Source of the DNA: a virus | Direction: 5' to 3' (one strand) | Length of the DNA stretch: 42,398 nt | IMG/VR virus record: IMGVR_UViG_3300007735_000734 | Span: 1 to 42,398 of that record | Part shown: positions 1-42,398 of the stretch, piece after piece | How positions within the stretch are numbered: the first letter of the stretch is position 1 | Layout of the letters: every line of letters starts with the position of its first letter | Translations under genes and position numbers: made by a program | The notes under the pieces: generated by a model | Told to the model about the DNA's origin: nothing | The model's database searches: none | Seen by the model: the letters and a program-made list of their open reading frames with translations, nothing else

Positions 1-287
1 GTAATATAGGCGCAGCCTACGGGCCAGGTCAGTGAGCTATCTTCCTGCCGCGTAAGGCGGCCGTAAATAGCTACGCCATCGCCCTGGCAGTGATTCAGTG
101 AAAATCGTACTTCGAGATCAGTAGGAAGATGACCTAACTTTTCTTCTAATCTAGAAGTCAGATAATCTTTGACTTCATCGCTATCCATAACTTCATATAG
201 GAATTCCTGATATTCCCGGATAGCTCTCTCTCGCGCATCACCTTCTAATTCCTGGAAGGTATATCGCCTTACCGTGTAGTACTTCAT
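1..287 (-). CDS. Hypothetical phage protein, left copy, 3' end cut by window edge
   Basis: This is the N-terminal 95 or so residues of the protein encoded in full at 40476..41045, and by eye the bases are identical there. The start at 287 is chosen because GGAG lies 8 bases upstream. The visible part begins MKYYTVRRYTF and contains the stretch FQELEGDARERAIREYQE, a pattern seen in a widespread family of uncharacterised phage and plasmid proteins (YTF-x-EL-x3-A+-x-A). No catalytic motif is visible. It is the last gene of the leftward module in this copy. Confidence 0.8.
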   Translation of the reverse strand, partial: MKYYTVRRYTFQELEGDARERAIREYQEFLYEVMDSDEVKDYLTSRLEEKLGHLPTDLEVRFSLNHCQGDGVAIYGRLTRQEDSSLTWPVGCAYI

Positions 288-304
288 CTCTTCATCTCCA
301 TTCC

Positions 305-363
305 GCATTAGGTCATTCGCCTAATATGCGGCCACCTTCCAGGGATATCGCTAGCCCTGGAAG
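305..363 (-). other. Intergenic stem-loop pair A
   Basis: Two inverted repeats fill the 87-base gap between the clamp gene and the next gene. The first pairs GCATTAGG (305..312) with CCTAATATGC (321..330) with one bulge. The second pairs CTTCCAGGG (336..344) with CCCTGGAAG (355..363), a perfect 9-bp stem. Neither is followed by a T-run, so they are not ordinary intrinsic terminators. The right copy keeps both at 41063..41088 and 41094..41121, with a substitution in the first loop. Confidence 0.7.
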
Positions 364-374
364 ATAGTCGCGTA

Positions 375-995
375 TTACGCCTTCCGCATAGGCATCAGTA
401 ACGCCCTCCAGGTTACTTTATTGCCCTCCAGGCCGATGATAATCGGCTTCTTTTCATCGATAAATTCGATCGTTACGCTGCCACCTTTCCCTACGATCTT
501 CGCGTAATCGGCAAAGAATGAAGGATTCAGAGTGATATTCGCCAGAGCTACCCGCGGTTGATCTTCCGCGGGCCATAGTTGATCAGTGGGAGGGTAAGTA
601 CCATCAAAGGCGCGGAAGGATACTTCCTGATCCAGATAGCGGGCCGTTACGCGATCACCATCGCGCTCGATCGTCATATAGGCATAACTACCCTTCGCTG
701 CCTTCGCTAACGCGATGATCTTCTTAGCATCATCGACCGGAATTACCGTGGCAGGTAGTGATCCCGCCATAGTTTCCACTTGCTCTACTTTTCCCTCGAT
801 CAAGCGATATCTATCGGTAGCCCTGGCGATCACCAGATCGCCGCTAGATTCGATGCCGATCGTGTTGAGTAGGGGCAGGCTCTTATCCTTGCCCGCGTGG
901 GTAATTACTCCCTCTAATAGCTCTAATAAGGTGCCCGCGTGAATTGCTACCGTGCCGGTAGTCTTCGCCGCTTTTTCTTCTAGTGATGCGCTCAT
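375..995 (-). CDS. DnaN-like sliding clamp, short two-domain form (left copy)
   Basis: The 206-residue product resembles the last two domains of the bacterial beta clamp, which holds the replicative polymerase on DNA. Family marks in order are a KDKSLPLLNTI stretch (~37-47), ATDRYRL (~59-65), VIPVDDAKKII in mid-protein, FDGTYPPTDQLWP, and a C-terminus ending LLMPMRKA, which matches the MPMR end of DnaN. Bacterial DnaN has about 370 residues and three domains; one domain's worth is missing. A ring would then need three subunits, as in PCNA or T4 gp45 (inference). The start at 995 follows AAGGAAAG. A second, diverged copy lies at 41133..41846. Confidence 0.85.
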   Translation of the reverse strand: MSASLEEKAAKTTGTVAIHAGTLLELLEGVITHAGKDKSLPLLNTIGIESSGDLVIARATDRYRLIEGKVEQVETMAGSLPATVIPVDDAKKIIALAKAAKGSYAYMTIERDGDRVTARYLDQEVSFRAFDGTYPPTDQLWPAEDQPRVALANITLNPSFFADYAKIVGKGGSVTIEFIDEKKPIIIGLEGNKVTWRALLMPMRKA

Positions 996-1032
996 ATTCT
1001 TTCCTTCATCTCTTATTCATCGCCGCCCTTAT

Positions 1033-1093
1033 GGCAGCGATGCCGTATCGGTAAGGATACGATCTAAGGCAGGGAATATCAAGCATCCCTGCC
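1033..1093 (-). other. Intergenic stem-loop group B
   Basis: The 111-base gap upstream of the clamp gene contains GGCAgcgaTGCC (1033..1044), GTATC/GATAC (1045..1049 with 1056..1060) and a perfect 8-bp stem GGCAGGGA/TCCCTGCC (1068..1075 with 1086..1093). No T-run follows in the leftward direction. The right copy preserves the group at about 41884..41944, which suggests selection on the folded RNA or on protein binding. Confidence 0.65.
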
Positions 1094-1106
1094 CTAGCTC
1101 TTAGCC

Positions 1107-1250
1107 TTATCGGTAACCGATTAGCTGGCACACTCTCCCTTCTATCGTGTCGCGACATTCGCCATAAACCGGCTCCAGGAATATCGCCGCGGCCAGGATG
1201 GTGAGGGCCAGGGCCGCCAGAAGGGCTAATAGTATTTTCTCCTGGCGCAT
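1107..1250 (-). CDS. Small single-pass membrane protein (left copy)
   Basis: The 47-residue product starts MRQEK and has a hydrophobic run of about 20 residues (ILLALLAALALTILAAAIF), followed by a short tail with two cysteines (GECRDTIEGRVC). It looks like a membrane-anchored or exported micro-protein with a possible disulfide; no family was recognised. Its ATG overlaps the stop of the gene before it (TGATG), so translation is probably coupled. The right copy at 41958..42101 differs by one residue near the C-terminus (Q to H) by my reading. Confidence 0.7.
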   Translation of the reverse strand: MRQEKILLALLAALALTILAAAIFLEPVYGECRDTIEGRVCQLIGYR

Positions 1251-1411
1251 CACTCACCTACCTGGATGCCCGCATACCGGACAATAGTGTTGAGGGTTAT
1301 ATGAATCTCACAATCGCACAATTCTCCGCCGCCCATATTCTCCTCGTATTCCAGATGGGAATAGTTATCCTCGTACATCTCATTGATCAATTCCTGGAGA
1401 GTGTCGCGCAT
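1250..1411 (-). CDS. Hypothetical 53-residue protein (left copy)
   Basis: The start at 1411 is the second of two adjacent ATGs; GGGGAGGA gives it a good spacing of 5. The product begins MRDTLQELINEMYEDNY and has an acidic middle and the pair CDCE near the C-terminus. No family was recognised. It overlaps the previous gene by one base and the next by one base, so the three genes 1587 to 1107 form one translationally coupled set. The right copy at 42101..42259 is one residue shorter and keeps the CRCD pair, so the cysteines may bind metal. Confidence 0.7.
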   Translation of the reverse strand: MRDTLQELINEMYEDNYSHLEYEENMGGGELCDCEIHITLNTIVRYAGIQVGE

Positions 1412-1587
1412 CATTCCTCCCCGCAATCGCATAGATGGCCGCAGGTATAGCAAACATAACCGCATCCCCAGGCCGTGTTATACCCGTACACGCGGCGGCC
1501 ATCGCCGCCTATAAAGGTGTACCAGCGGCCCGCGGCATCCATCGCCGCCCCTACACTCTCGCGCTCTTTTTCTATTGACCAGCTCAT
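1411..1587 (-). CDS. Small Cys-rich protein (left copy)
   Basis: The 58-residue product starts MSWSIEKERESVG. Its C-terminal third has closely spaced cysteines (CGYVCYTCGHLCDC), which suggests a small zinc-binding fold. The start at 1587 is preferred over an in-frame ATG at 1602 because AAGGGA lies 6 bases upstream of it. The stop overlaps the next ATG. A 5'-truncated copy runs off the right edge of the window (42259..42398). No family name can be given. Confidence 0.7.
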   Translation of the reverse strand: MSWSIEKERESVGAAMDAAGRWYTFIGGDGRRVYGYNTAWGCGYVCYTCGHLCDCGEE

Positions 1588-1614
1588 ATTTATTCCCTTC
1601 ATCTCGTTTATTCT

Positions 1615-1654
1615 GGGATATTCATCCCCTACCCTCCCCAGGCCGTAGCCTGGG
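1615..1654 (-). other. Intergenic stem-loop pair C
   Basis: The 87-base gap between 1588 and 1674 holds GGGATattcATCCC (1615..1628) and the perfect stem CCCAGGC-CGTA-GCCTGGG (1637..1654). There is no T-run after either on the leftward strand. The arrangement, two hairpins between two genes, is the same as in groups A, B and D. Confidence 0.65.
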
Positions 1655-1674
1655 AAGGATAGGTAACGCCCTCC

Positions 1675-1824
1675 CTAGCGGCACTCTGGGCATACCATCG
1701 CGTCATTCTCCGGCCGCTGGTAAATCTCATATTCATCCACTATCTGCCCGCACTCTTCGCAGGAATAGAAATCCTTCCCCTCTTCCTGGGTCATCTTCAT
1801 CAATAGCTCATTGATGTCGCTCAT
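1675..1824 (-). CDS. Small zinc-ribbon protein
   Basis: The 49-residue product has two CxxC pairs, CEEC near residue 27 and CPEC at the very end, separated by an acidic segment; this is a rubredoxin- or zinc-ribbon-like knuckle arrangement. The start at 1824 is the second of two adjacent ATGs behind AGGAGG, with a spacing of 7. It resembles the many CxxC microproteins in the right-hand leftward module. Its partner is unknown; zinc ribbons this small in phages often contact host RNA polymerase or replication proteins, but nothing here shows that. Confidence 0.7.
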   Translation of the reverse strand: MSDINELLMKMTQEEGKDFYSCEECGQIVDEYEIYQRPENDAMVCPECR

Positions 1825-1835
1825 CATCTCTCCTC

Positions 1836-2174
1836 CTATAACCATTCCTGGCGCAGCGATTCGCGGCCGTCTAGGCCGTATAGCGCGATGCTTACACTCT
1901 CCACTAGATGCCATCCCATATCCATTCCCAGGCCCTCTACTCTTACGGCCCTGCCGCCATTACGGTCTATGAGCCGCCAGCCTAGAAGGCGGGCCACCCA
2001 GAAGGTGATGGCATAGATGCGGCCATCGCGTACACAATAGACGGCAATATCTCGCGACATTCCAGAGCGGCTAACGCTCTTTACGCTGGTATAGACGGTA
2101 CTACCAGCAGGTAGCATCTTTTCTAGCTGGAAAATAGCTTCCTGCCGTATCTGCTTTTTTTCTAGTGCCTTCAT
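1836..2174 (-). CDS. Conserved phage hypothetical with SVSRSGMSR motif
   Basis: The 112-residue product begins MKALEKKQIRQEAIFQLEKML, an amphipathic helix, followed by TVYTSVKSVSRSGMSRDIAVY. The SRSGMSR stretch with a following beta strand is typical of a family of uncharacterised proteins found in many phages. The RBS is AAGGAAAAG just upstream. It is the second gene of the leftward module and is preceded by a strongly structured gap. Function is unknown. Confidence 0.75.
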   Translation of the reverse strand: MKALEKKQIRQEAIFQLEKMLPAGSTVYTSVKSVSRSGMSRDIAVYCVRDGRIYAITFWVARLLGWRLIDRNGGRAVRVEGLGMDMGWHLVESVSIALYGLDGRESLRQEWL

Positions 2175-2195
2175 CTCTTTTCCTTTTCTCTTAGC

Positions 2196-2270
2196 GGAAT
2201 CGGTTAGCGATTCCCTACCGTTGCCAGGTCATCGAAGAGCTGGCAACGATAGGCAACGGCTACGCCTATC
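2196..2270 (-). other. Intergenic stem-loop group D (strongest)
   Basis: Three inverted repeats lie nearly end to end: GGAATCG-gttag-CGATTCC (2196..2214); a long stem of 13 pairs out of 14 joining bases 2214..2227 with 2240..2253, core CGTTGCCAG/CTGGCAACG; and GATAGGC/GCCTATC (2248..2254 with 2264..2270), which overlaps the second and so would be an alternative fold. No T-run follows on the leftward strand. The mutually exclusive pairing is what a switch or processing site would show, but that is inference. Confidence 0.7.
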
Positions 2271-2294
2271 TAATTTTTGATCATCTGGTGATTA

Positions 2295-2591: not shown

Positions 2592-2697
2592 ATCTTCATC
2601 TCCATATCTGGCAGGCAGGCCCTGCCATAGCTCAATTATGAAGGAAGGCTAGGGAGGAATCAACTACCAGCGGGAGGGAATTACTAGCCCGCCATCA

Positions 2698-2916: not shown

Positions 2917-2936
2917 AAAAAAAGGGGAACGACCCC
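2917..2936 (-). terminator. Leftward intrinsic terminator or attenuator
   Basis: On the minus strand GGGG-tcgtt-CCCC (2936..2924) is followed by seven Ts (2923..2917). The stem is only four G-C pairs. It lies upstream of the first leftward gene, so it would cut short a leftward transcript starting to its right. That makes it a possible attenuator or the end of a small leader RNA. Confidence 0.4.
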
Positions 2937-3063
2937 CCGTTGTTGAATCGGCGCGACCGAGATGTCACATACCCACAAAAAATATTTCGACTAAAGTGAA
3001 GATCCCGTGACTCGGCCATTTAAGCCACTTGTTCCTGTGAGTTCCATCACATTCCAATATATT

Positions 3064-19624: not shown

Positions 19625-21422
<1,798 letters not shown>

Positions 21423-38020: not shown

Positions 38021-38054
38021 AAAAAAGGCCCCGCATTTTTAGTGCGGAGCCTTT
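38021..38054 (-). terminator. Leftward rho-independent terminator
   Basis: AAAGGCCCCGCA (38024..38035) pairs with TGCGGAGCCTTT (38043..38054), 11 of 12 positions, over a 7-base loop. On the minus strand the stem is followed by a run of six Ts (38026..38021), on the plus strand only by TTT. It therefore acts mainly on leftward transcripts, with possible weak rightward action for the replication block. Confidence 0.8.
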
Positions 38055-40216: not shown

Positions 40217-40476
40217 GCGTTTACCTTCTCAGCGCAGTGATTCCAGCAATTCCCGCAGTCAGCGCAGTGATCTAATTGTGATCCTGGATCGTAACCAGCT
40301 CCGCAGGTATCGCACTCGCCTTCCGGCTCCCAGGTAGCGTAGTAATCTCCCTCTACTTCGCGTAGTCCGGTATAGATCACTATCTGCCCGTCTAGATCTT
40401 TATCGATGGCATAACCCAGGCATAACTTCGCTAGCTCAGATCGGAATTGATATCCCGATATCTTATTTTCGCTCAT
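40213..40476 (-). CDS. Zinc-binding hypothetical protein
   Basis: The 87-residue product starts MSENKISGYQFRSELAKLCL and contains DKDLDGQIVIYTGLREVEGD, then a cysteine-rich end (ECDTCGAGYDP, DHCADCGNCWNHCAEK). The 'D-DGQIVIYTGL' motif is common in small actinobacterial phage proteins as I recall. Several cysteines and histidines at the end could bind one or two zinc ions. It overlaps both neighbours. Confidence 0.72.
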   Translation of the reverse strand: MSENKISGYQFRSELAKLCLGYAIDKDLDGQIVIYTGLREVEGDYYATWEPEGECDTCGAGYDPGSQLDHCADCGNCWNHCAEKVNA

Positions 40477-41045
40477 TACGCGATCACCTTCTCAATGGCA
40501 TCTTTGGGGATATCAAACTTCCCGCTCGATAGGAATACAGCTTCTTCATCCTCTTCGAGATTCATTATCGCAGCTTCGCGGCCAGTCATACTATCGATAT
40601 AGCGATAGCCTTCTCGCTCCAACTCGCGGCAGATATCGCGCAGTTGCTTCTCGATGATGCTTCCATCGATATCGATCCATTCATCATCACCATCGTATCC
40701 TTCTACGCTGAAGGAATTCCAGTGAGTATTATGGTAGCCGAAAGAATTACGGTTGAGAGTAATATAGGCGCAGCCTACGGGCCAGGTCAGTGAGCTATCT
40801 TCCTGCCGCGTAAGGCGGCCGTAAATAGCTACGCCATCGCCCTGGCAGTGATTCAGTGAAAATCGTACTTCGAGATCAGTAGGAAGATGACCTAACTTTT
40901 CTTCTAATCTAGAAGTCAGATAATCTTTGACTTCATCGCTATCCATAACTTCATATAGGAATTCCTGATATTCCCGGATAGCTCTCTCTCGCGCATCACC
41001 TTCTAATTCCTGGAAGGTATATCGCCTTACCGTGTAGTACTTCAT
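40476..41045 (-). CDS. Conserved phage hypothetical (YTF-EL family), complete copy
   Basis: The 189-residue product starts MKYYTVRRYTFQELEGDARE. It contains RFSLNHCQGDGVAIYGRLTR and a mid part with GYHNTHWNSFSVEGYDGDDE, ending with a helical acidic domain. The TF-EL---A+E-AI-EY opening and the FSLN-CQGDGVA-YG stretch are typical of a widespread uncharacterised phage family. The start at 41045 with GGAG is preferred to 41066. Its 5' part is repeated at 1..287. Function unknown. Confidence 0.78.
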   Translation of the reverse strand: MKYYTVRRYTFQELEGDARERAIREYQEFLYEVMDSDEVKDYLTSRLEEKLGHLPTDLEVRFSLNHCQGDGVAIYGRLTRQEDSSLTWPVGCAYITLNRNSFGYHNTHWNSFSVEGYDGDDEWIDIDGSIIEKQLRDICRELEREGYRYIDSMTGREAAIMNLEEDEEAVFLSSGKFDIPKDAIEKVIA

Positions 41046-41132
41046 CTCTTCATCTCCATCCCGCATTAGGACATTCGCCTAATATGCGGCCACCTTCCAG
41101 GGATATCGCTAGCCCTGGAAGATAGTCGCGTA

Positions 41133-41846
41133 TTACGCCTTTCGCATAGGCATCAGTAACGCCCTCCAGGTTACTTTATTGCCCTCCAGGCCGATGATAA
41201 TCGGCTTCTTTTCATCGATAAATTCGATCGTCACGCTGCCCTTCTTCCCTACGATCTTCGCGTAATCGGCAAAGAAGGAAGGGTTCAGAGTGATATTCGC
41301 CAGAGCTACACGCGGTTGATCTTCCGCGGGCCATAGTTGATCAGTGGGAGGGTAGGTACCATCAAAGGCGCGAAAGGATACTTCCTGATCCAGATAGCGG
41401 GCCGTTACGCGATCACCATCGCGTTCGATCGTCATAAAGATATTGATACCCTTCGCCGCCTTCGCTAACGCGATGATCTTCTTCGCATCATCGACAGGAA
41501 TTACCGTGGCAGGTAGTGATCCCGCCATATTCTCCACTTGCTCTACTTTCCCTTCTATCAAGCGATAGCGATCGGTAGCCTTAGCGATCACTTGATCGCC
41601 TTCCGATACGATCGAGATCGTGTTGAGTAGGGGCAGGCTCTTATCCTTGCCCGCGTGGGTAATTACTCCCTCTAATAGCTCTAATAAGGTGCCCGCGTGA
41701 ATTGCTACCGTGCCGGTAGTCTTCGCCGCTTTATCTTCTAGTGATGCCTTCATCTCTTTTCCTTTCCTATTGATCTCGCCAGTGGGGTTAGATGATGACC
41801 AGCTAACCGTATCGACCATATCTTCATCGCGTAATTGTGCGCTCAT
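41133..41846 (-). CDS. DnaN-like sliding clamp, right copy with optional N-terminal extension
   Basis: The core from M at 41753 is 206 residues and matches the left clamp over most of its length, with changes clustered in two places: NTISIVSEGDQVIAKATDR for NTIGIESSGDLVIARATDR, and GINIFMTI for GSYAYMTI. The C-terminus again ends LLMPMRKA. An in-frame start at 41846, with the same AAGGAAAAG context as the left gene, adds 31 residues (MSAQLRDEDMVDTVSW...). The ATG at 41753 has its own RBS, so one locus may give two proteins. Like the left copy it has two, not three, DnaN domains. Confidence 0.83.
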   Translation of the reverse strand: MSAQLRDEDMVDTVSWSSSNPTGEINRKGKEMKASLEDKAAKTTGTVAIHAGTLLELLEGVITHAGKDKSLPLLNTISIVSEGDQVIAKATDRYRLIEGKVEQVENMAGSLPATVIPVDDAKKIIALAKAAKGINIFMTIERDGDRVTARYLDQEVSFRAFDGTYPPTDQLWPAEDQPRVALANITLNPSFFADYAKIVGKKGSVTIEFIDEKKPIIIGLEGNKVTWRALLMPMRKA

Positions 41847-41957
41847 ATCTTTTCCTTCATCTCTTATTCATCGCCGCCCCTATGGCAGCGATGCCGTATC
41901 GGTAAGGATACGATCTAAGGCAGGGAATATCAAGCATCCCTGCCCTAGCTCTTAGCC

Positions 41958-42101
41958 TTATCGGTAGCCGATTAGGTGGCACACTCTCCCTTCTATCGTG
42001 TCGCGACATTCGCCATATACCGGCTCTAGGAATATCGCCGCGGCCAGGATAGTCAAGGCCAGGGCCGCCAGGAGGGCTAGTAATATCTTTTCCTGGCGCA
42101 T
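41958..42101 (-). CDS. Small single-pass membrane protein (right copy)
   Basis: The 47-residue product starts MRQEKILLALLAALALTILA, nearly identical to 1107..1250, with the tail ECRDTIEGRVCHLIGYR. The ATG at 42101 overlaps the previous stop. A longer frame to 42170 covers the upstream gene and is rejected. The very high conservation compared with the nearby clamp region suggests that the sequence is constrained. Confidence 0.7.
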   Translation of the reverse strand: MRQEKILLALLAALALTILAAAIFLEPVYGECRDTIEGRVCHLIGYR

Positions 42102-42259
42102 CATTGACCTACCTGGATGCCCGCATAGCGGGCCATAGTGTCTAGGGCGATATGGATATCGCAGCGGCATTGATCGCCGCCCATATTTTCCTCATATTCC
42201 AGGTGAGAGTAGTTACTCTCATAAATCTCGTTTATCAATTCCTGGAGAGTGTCGCGCAT
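42101..42259 (-). CDS. Hypothetical 52-residue protein (right copy)
   Basis: The product reads MRDTLQELINEIYESNYSHL and ends ARYAGIQVGQ. It is the counterpart of 1250..1411, with one codon deleted and several substitutions in the middle (GGDQCRCDIH for GGGELCDCEIH), keeping two cysteines. The start at 42259 is the second of two ATGs behind GGAGGA. Confidence 0.68.
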   Translation of the reverse strand: MRDTLQELINEIYESNYSHLEYEENMGGDQCRCDIHIALDTMARYAGIQVGQ

Positions 42260-42398
42260 CATTCCTCCGCACAATCGCATAGATGGCCGCAGGTATAGCA
42301 AACATAACCGCATCCCCAGGCCGTGTTATACCCGTACACGCGGCGGCCATCGCCGCCTATAAAGGTGTACCAGCGGCCCGCGGCGTCCATCGCCGCCC
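42259..42398 (-). CDS. Small Cys-rich protein (right copy, 5' end cut)
   Basis: The frame ends with GYNTAWGCGYVCYTCGHLCD and CAEE and runs off the window edge before its start. It is the counterpart of 1411..1587, with CAEE for CGEE at the end. The stop overlaps the following ATG. Confidence 0.7.
   Translation of the reverse strand, partial: AAMDAAGRWYTFIGGDGRRVYGYNTAWGCGYVCYTCGHLCDCAEE

Follow-up and report, generated by a model that had tools for sequence, protein, structure and literature searches.

A predicted intercistronic mRNA element with two competing pairings in the early-gene gaps of a phage and its freshwater metagenome relatives

The window analysed here is the whole virus record IMGVR_UViG_3300007735_000734, 42,398 bases in length, whose right end (40759-42398) repeats positions 1-1550 at 93-100% identity, with a perfect match across the first 300 bases and divergence beyond. 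The two contig ends probably stem from two strain variants of a single genome and meet at its closure point, rather than forming a true duplication, and we read their overlap as that of a circular or terminally redundant genome; with the ends taken as variants of one overlap, the left module and the string of genes at 38-41 kb form a single leftward gene string. The terminase and another virion-region protein tie the virus to numerous metagenome contigs of IMG/VR; a more distant link is to Streptomyces phages (Beephvirinae). The left module contains a gene for a beta-clamp-like protein of 206 aa (375..995, minus strand; Pfam DNA_pol3_beta_2, E 8.5e-7; PHROG 947, E 7e-13), the right copy of which carries a 93-base insertion relative to the left copy. 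Its length is roughly half that of a bacterial clamp, and many related phages conserve it at the corresponding position, with 34-46% identity. As a single query it found no relatives among viral contigs or annotated phages, while an alignment of its homologues gave 142 matches in viral contigs and none in bacterial genomes. Elsewhere in the window, the open reading frame at 19965-21422 contains an extended array of 9-base repeats (71 register copies) and looks like a collagen-like Gly-X-Y fibre protein. A hairpin flanked by A and T runs at 38024-38054, between convergent gene strings, is likely a bidirectional terminator. A GC-rich hairpin with seven T after it (2921-2938, minus strand), ahead of the left module's first gene, could be a terminator in the early operon's leader; in this it differs from the junction elements described below.

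Four gaps of the left module, 288..374, 996..1106, 1588..1674 and 2175..2294, hold two or three inverted repeats apiece on the mRNA (minus) strand, as the preliminary description of this DNA had noted, and their minimum free energies lie well below those of dinucleotide shuffles (z -4.5, -5.4, -4.7 and -4.1, respectively). The stems were given there as up to 13 pairs; they are present, at a different length, the long forms spanning 15-23 positions with a few mismatches. A fifth site that had been placed after 2591, at 2609..2627, did not hold up, being no more structured than shuffles (z -1.1) and giving no covariance-model match. The other leftward string, described as lacking such hairpins, indeed gave no covariance-model match above noise (best E 3.7). 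In the two gaps shared by the left and right copies there are five substitutions (302, 313, 998, 999 and 1029), all outside stems by inspection, in keeping with the suggestion that the right copies retain their stems; for comparison, the clamp gene differs by 6.6% between the two copies.

Judged from sequence, the hairpin gaps hold copies of one conserved cis-acting intercistronic mRNA element. In mRNA order it comprises the upstream stop codon with strand a, hairpin P1, strand b, strand c, a start-associated sequence and the start codon. P1 has a CUAUC...GGURG core and a hypervariable, covarying upper stem. In the relatives' elements, strand a is UAGUGGCGUA-like, strand b resembles UCUGC-ACUA or UAUCUUACUA, and strand c is followed by a purine-rich start region and AUG. 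The preliminary description lacked two features of the element. The two hairpins of each gap share one strand and are therefore alternatives, b pairing either with a, which extends P1, or with c, which forms hairpin P2. In addition, the competing strand contains or adjoins the upstream gene's stop codon. This two-pairing plan fits all four gaps of the window, three via the covariance model of the element (R1, with the window left out of its training) combined with a search for P2, and 996..1106 by sequence inspection. R1 matched three of the four gaps and the right copy of element 1, in every case on the sense strand and within a gap.

All elements lie on the minus strand, and elements 1 and 2 flank the clamp gene. 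Element 1 (298..379; R1 E 1.8e-10; z -4.5), at the junction of the clamp gene and gene 40476-41066, consists of the stop codon UAA (377-375), paired with UUA in strand b, within strand a (379-368), the P1 core (367-332), and strands b and c as P2 (331-303); its right, strain-variant copy is at 41056..41137 (R1 E 2.6e-10). Element 2 (1018..1109; z -5.4), upstream of the clamp gene, is too diverged for a significant R1 match and has 30-nt arms that are 80% complementary; it comprises UAA at 1109-1107, P1 at about 1100-1061, P2 at about 1061-1044, whose loop CUUACC is able to pair with UAAGG at the stop, and a third hairpin at 1042-1018. Its right copy, at 41869..41957 (z -4.8), lies where the repeat is 93% identical. 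Element 3 (1595..1677; R1 match 1595-1667, E 4.3e-7; z -4.7) has UAG at 1677-1675, strand a at 1674-1663, the P1 core at 1662-1629 and P2 at 1628-1615 (GGGAU gaau AUCCC). Element 4 (2181..2264; R1 E 2.9e-13; z -4.1), upstream of gene 1836-2174, has strand a at 2264-2253, the P1 core at 2252-2215 and P2 at 2214-2196 (GGAAUCG cuaac CGAUUCC).

The start-associated sequence GAGATGAAG has 12 copies in the window versus 0.57 expected, and stands at the start of every gene after a hairpin gap as well as of the first gene. On the minus strand, two copies in overlapping registers lie at the start of gene 40476-41066 (282..298), and others ahead of the clamp start codon (1004..1012), ahead of the gene below 1588 (1597..1605), overlapping the start codon of gene 1836-2174 (2169..2177), and ahead of the first gene, 2295-2591 (2594..2602), where the leader hairpin is not significant. 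At the corresponding start position, Streptomyces phages carry CAAGGG(G)AGAGA. Promoter-like matches were no commoner in the window than in shuffles.

The element fills early-gene gaps in this phage and in more than 100 relatives, phages of freshwater metagenomes whose contigs were collected via the terminase and via the alignment of the short clamp protein. A strong hairpin lies within 40 nt of the clamp stop codon in 79 of 80 clamp loci, versus 2% of random windows, and another upstream of the clamp gene in 76 of the 80. These loci contain about 160 sense-strand matches to R1, nearly all antisense matches being weaker shadows of sense matches at the same sites, and 15 long contigs have 1-5 matches each; over 771 kb around a virion-region gene, R1 gave one marginal match. 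No Rfam 15 family reached its gathering threshold in the window and seven relatives, the hits at E<=1 being just weak chance matches to eukaryotic or archaeal families, and the element is undescribed in Rfam and in the open-access literature searched.

The idea that a shared RNA-level mechanism underlies the hairpins is strongly supported by compensatory changes, by an excess of G.U pairs over A.C mismatches and by sense-strand intergenic placement. Loss of the stems among relatives, or repeats moving independently of the genes, had been named as observations that would speak against it; both were looked for and neither refuted it. The covariance analysis across relatives that had been called for found compensatory change in nearly every pair. 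In 43 diverged elements, the window excluded, 90% of the cells of a 24-pair long form are paired versus 69.9% after shuffling, changes on both sides occur in 21 of the 24 pairs, and the covariation score is 0.61 versus 0.21 shuffled and at most 0.19 in slid registers. RNAalifold independently returned a 3-pair UAG:CUA base, an internal loop and the core helix. Among hairpins taken without motif selection, G.U pairs outnumber A.C mismatches on the mRNA strand by 261 to 13. The pattern used to collect elements favours CUAUC/GGURG and requires a U.G as the fourth core pair, whose constancy therefore carries no evidential weight; in unselected hairpins AUC/GGU is present in 33 of 67.

That strand b has two partners is borne out by permutation of partners among 81 elements, which had been collected without regard to strands b and c: a:b (z -8.9) and b:c (z -14.9) are both specific, and no a:c pairing is seen (z +1.1). 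In the fixed-length subset, all five pairs of the P2 helix show double-sided changes and the P2 loop matches strand a (mean run 5.5 versus 4.1 permuted, 0/500); alignment A3 was chosen for a fixed-length P2, so that its 100% pairing is biased and the unselected test is the permutation. Sequence comparison shows P1 to be kept by compensatory change, and strand b to be complementary to both a and c. As P2 loops are mostly 4-6 nt, the a:b and b:c pairings are largely mutually exclusive, giving two folds: a single long hairpin, with a:b stacked beneath P1, or P1 plus P2. The long form has a computed median advantage of 3.4 kcal/mol over the alternative. P2 mostly ends 20-28 nt ahead of the start codon, and both folds leave the ribosome-binding site unsequestered. 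A simultaneous pseudoknot, in which a pairs with the P2 loop while b:c is formed, was judged sterically unlikely with loops mostly of 4-6 nt, although longer loops might accommodate it.

The upstream stop codon is part of this arrangement. Columns 3-5 of strand a, which lie seven nucleotides ahead of the core, hold an in-frame stop in 32 of 97 elements; 31 of these 32 are fully paired with an anti-stop, an arrangement that element 1 of the window shows with UAA and UUA (UAG:CUA in 25, UAA:UUA in 5, UGA:UUA in 1). Of the 47 elements with a stop-like triplet in columns 3-5, the feature for which alignment A2 was chosen, 21 have it out of frame; hence the pairing is maintained even where the triplet is not the stop, and the overlap of stop codon and element may partly reflect compactness rather than sensing. 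We found no description of a competing second partner for a stop-pairing strand in the open-access literature searched. Stop-codon readthrough was considered as a general role and rejected, the median of 12 open codons after the stop being that of random positions.

Cultured Streptomyces phages of the Beephvirinae share this layout in diverged sequence. In six annotated Streptomyces phages, gaps in the early block fall into two length classes, one of up to 43 nt and one of 61 nt or more. In WRightOn, whose replication block is almost gapless, strong structure (z -2.9 to -5.0) was seen in nine of nine long early gaps tested, but neither in an early gap of 34 nt nor in the replication block's sole 64-nt gap. 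R1 reaches neither the Streptomyces phages nor TM4; permutation tests were therefore used in the former, which have the same architecture and are not proven members of one sequence family. There the a:b pairing is specific (z -11.7). The pairing of b (its first 10 nt) with downstream sequence is weak (z -2.4), and the complementarity of P2 loops to the upstream stop-codon region (z 6.5, n=31) comes from a test adopted after that weak result.

We favour a model in which the element is an intercistronic insulator or processing element, its two folds probably toggled by the terminating ribosome; we put the probability of this reading at about 0.5. The long fold would be the first to form, usually with a small advantage in stability. 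On reaching the upstream stop, a terminating ribosome would cover strand a and free strand b, which could then pair with c. In either fold, a stable double-stranded block would part the two cistrons, and might insulate adjacent translation units of the early operon by stopping decay or reinitiating ribosomes from crossing the junction. In addition or instead, the long duplex could be a substrate for RNase III-type cleavage, after which P2 would serve as a protective 5' hairpin of the downstream message, beside its ribosome-binding site. Both the shift in balance between the folds by a ribosome on the stop and the element's role in insulation, stability or processing are inferred. Processing and stability control were among the mechanisms proposed in the preliminary description; with insulation, they form the most plausible class remaining, while put-type antitermination, also proposed there, is taken up below. 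A more far-reaching view, which we offer tentatively and would not count on, is that of a widespread actinophage RNA class in which the terminating ribosome throws a two-state switch at the major junctions of early operons: the stop would be paired in one state, the anti-stop strand would pass to a hairpin near the next ribosome-binding site in the other, and the termination of each gene would thereby be sensed and relayed to the fate of the next message.

The confidence that we attach to the insulator or processing, RNase III and translational-switch readings overlaps between them. It is conceivable, if somewhat doubtful, that the elements are plain RNase III sites of the T7 kind, in which the long duplex alone matters and the alternative hairpin provides a stable 5' end for the 3' product. 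T7 has 10 intergenic RNase III sites, many sharing a gap with a promoter (PMC9135205), and this precedent resembles the window in its long mRNA hairpins at intergenic junctions of early operons. Here there is one long intergenic duplex per early-operon junction, up to 24 pairs long and hypervariable yet paired. Cleavage by RNase III is putative in this case, however, and such sites alone would leave unexplained the conserved core and the retention of both a:b and b:c. The core, the alternative pairing and the pairing of stop codons set the element apart from the T7 sites.

Slightly less probable is a translational switch, whereby upstream termination toggles the fold and tunes downstream initiation by coupling or anti-coupling. 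The stop codon within strand a, the complementarity of the P2 loop to the stop region, which extends to Streptomyces phages (z 6.5), and the position of P2 near the initiation footprint all agree with such a role, but the effect would be modest with the ribosome-binding site uncovered in both folds. The plan recalls ribosome-dependent attenuators of the trp and erm type, in which a middle strand has two mutually exclusive partners, one of them within reach of a ribosome. In the phage element, by contrast, the ribosome would be terminating on full-length genes, the ribosome-binding site is free, there is no U-run terminator, and copies stand at several junctions of one operon.

Transcription attenuators or antitermination elements, put- or nut-like, are improbable, even though the hairpins lie in the leader direction of the operon and alternative pairing is typical of attenuators. 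A U-run is absent from 81 of 81 elements, none having five or more T among the 8 nt that follow the long hairpin, which extends to relatives the earlier remark that no hairpin of the window is followed by a T-run. The put RNAs of HK022 likewise place two adjacent stem-loops in the nascent early RNA. Yet put sites are few and promoter-proximal, one or two per genome, whereas the window has junction elements at four places and other contigs up to five matches, with competing strands, adjoining stop and start codons, several copies per operon and no Rfam match; antitermination of the put type is thus unsupported.

Least probable, and already largely refuted, is a set of DNA-level protein-binding inverted repeats of the kind suggested for the extended start-associated sequences (ESAS) of cluster K mycobacteriophages, which likewise lie beside a start-associated sequence (PMC3203893), since here the stems are hypervariable with compensatory change, G.U pairs are far commoner than A.C mismatches on the mRNA strand, and at the same sites scores are higher for sense than for antisense. 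ESAS are conserved 17-bp repeats, linked to the 13-bp start-associated sequence (SAS) GGGATAGGAGCCC at the start codon, and departures from the repeat were held by the authors not to support RNA pairing (PMC3203893). The two systems are alike in having inverted repeats in the gaps of non-structural (early) genes, in one orientation and directly ahead of a short repeat located at the start codon. They differ in that the window's stems vary freely yet pair, with many pair types per position in the upper stems, in that the second hairpin shares a strand with the first, and in the use of GAGATGAAG. Two ESAS sites of Mycobacterium phage TM4, at about 19990-20670, fold into long near-perfect RNA hairpins. 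The published view of ESAS as DNA sites may merit re-testing by covariation in a larger set of cluster K genomes.

Structured intercistronic phage RNAs are known from few models. The element adds a large and statistically strong RNA family in freshwater metagenome phages, with a diverged form in cultivable Streptomyces phages, and the same layout in the latter makes it testable at the bench. Such work would show how phages with compact operons keep adjacent messages apart, and our findings suggest that repeats in other actinophages merit re-examination at the RNA level.
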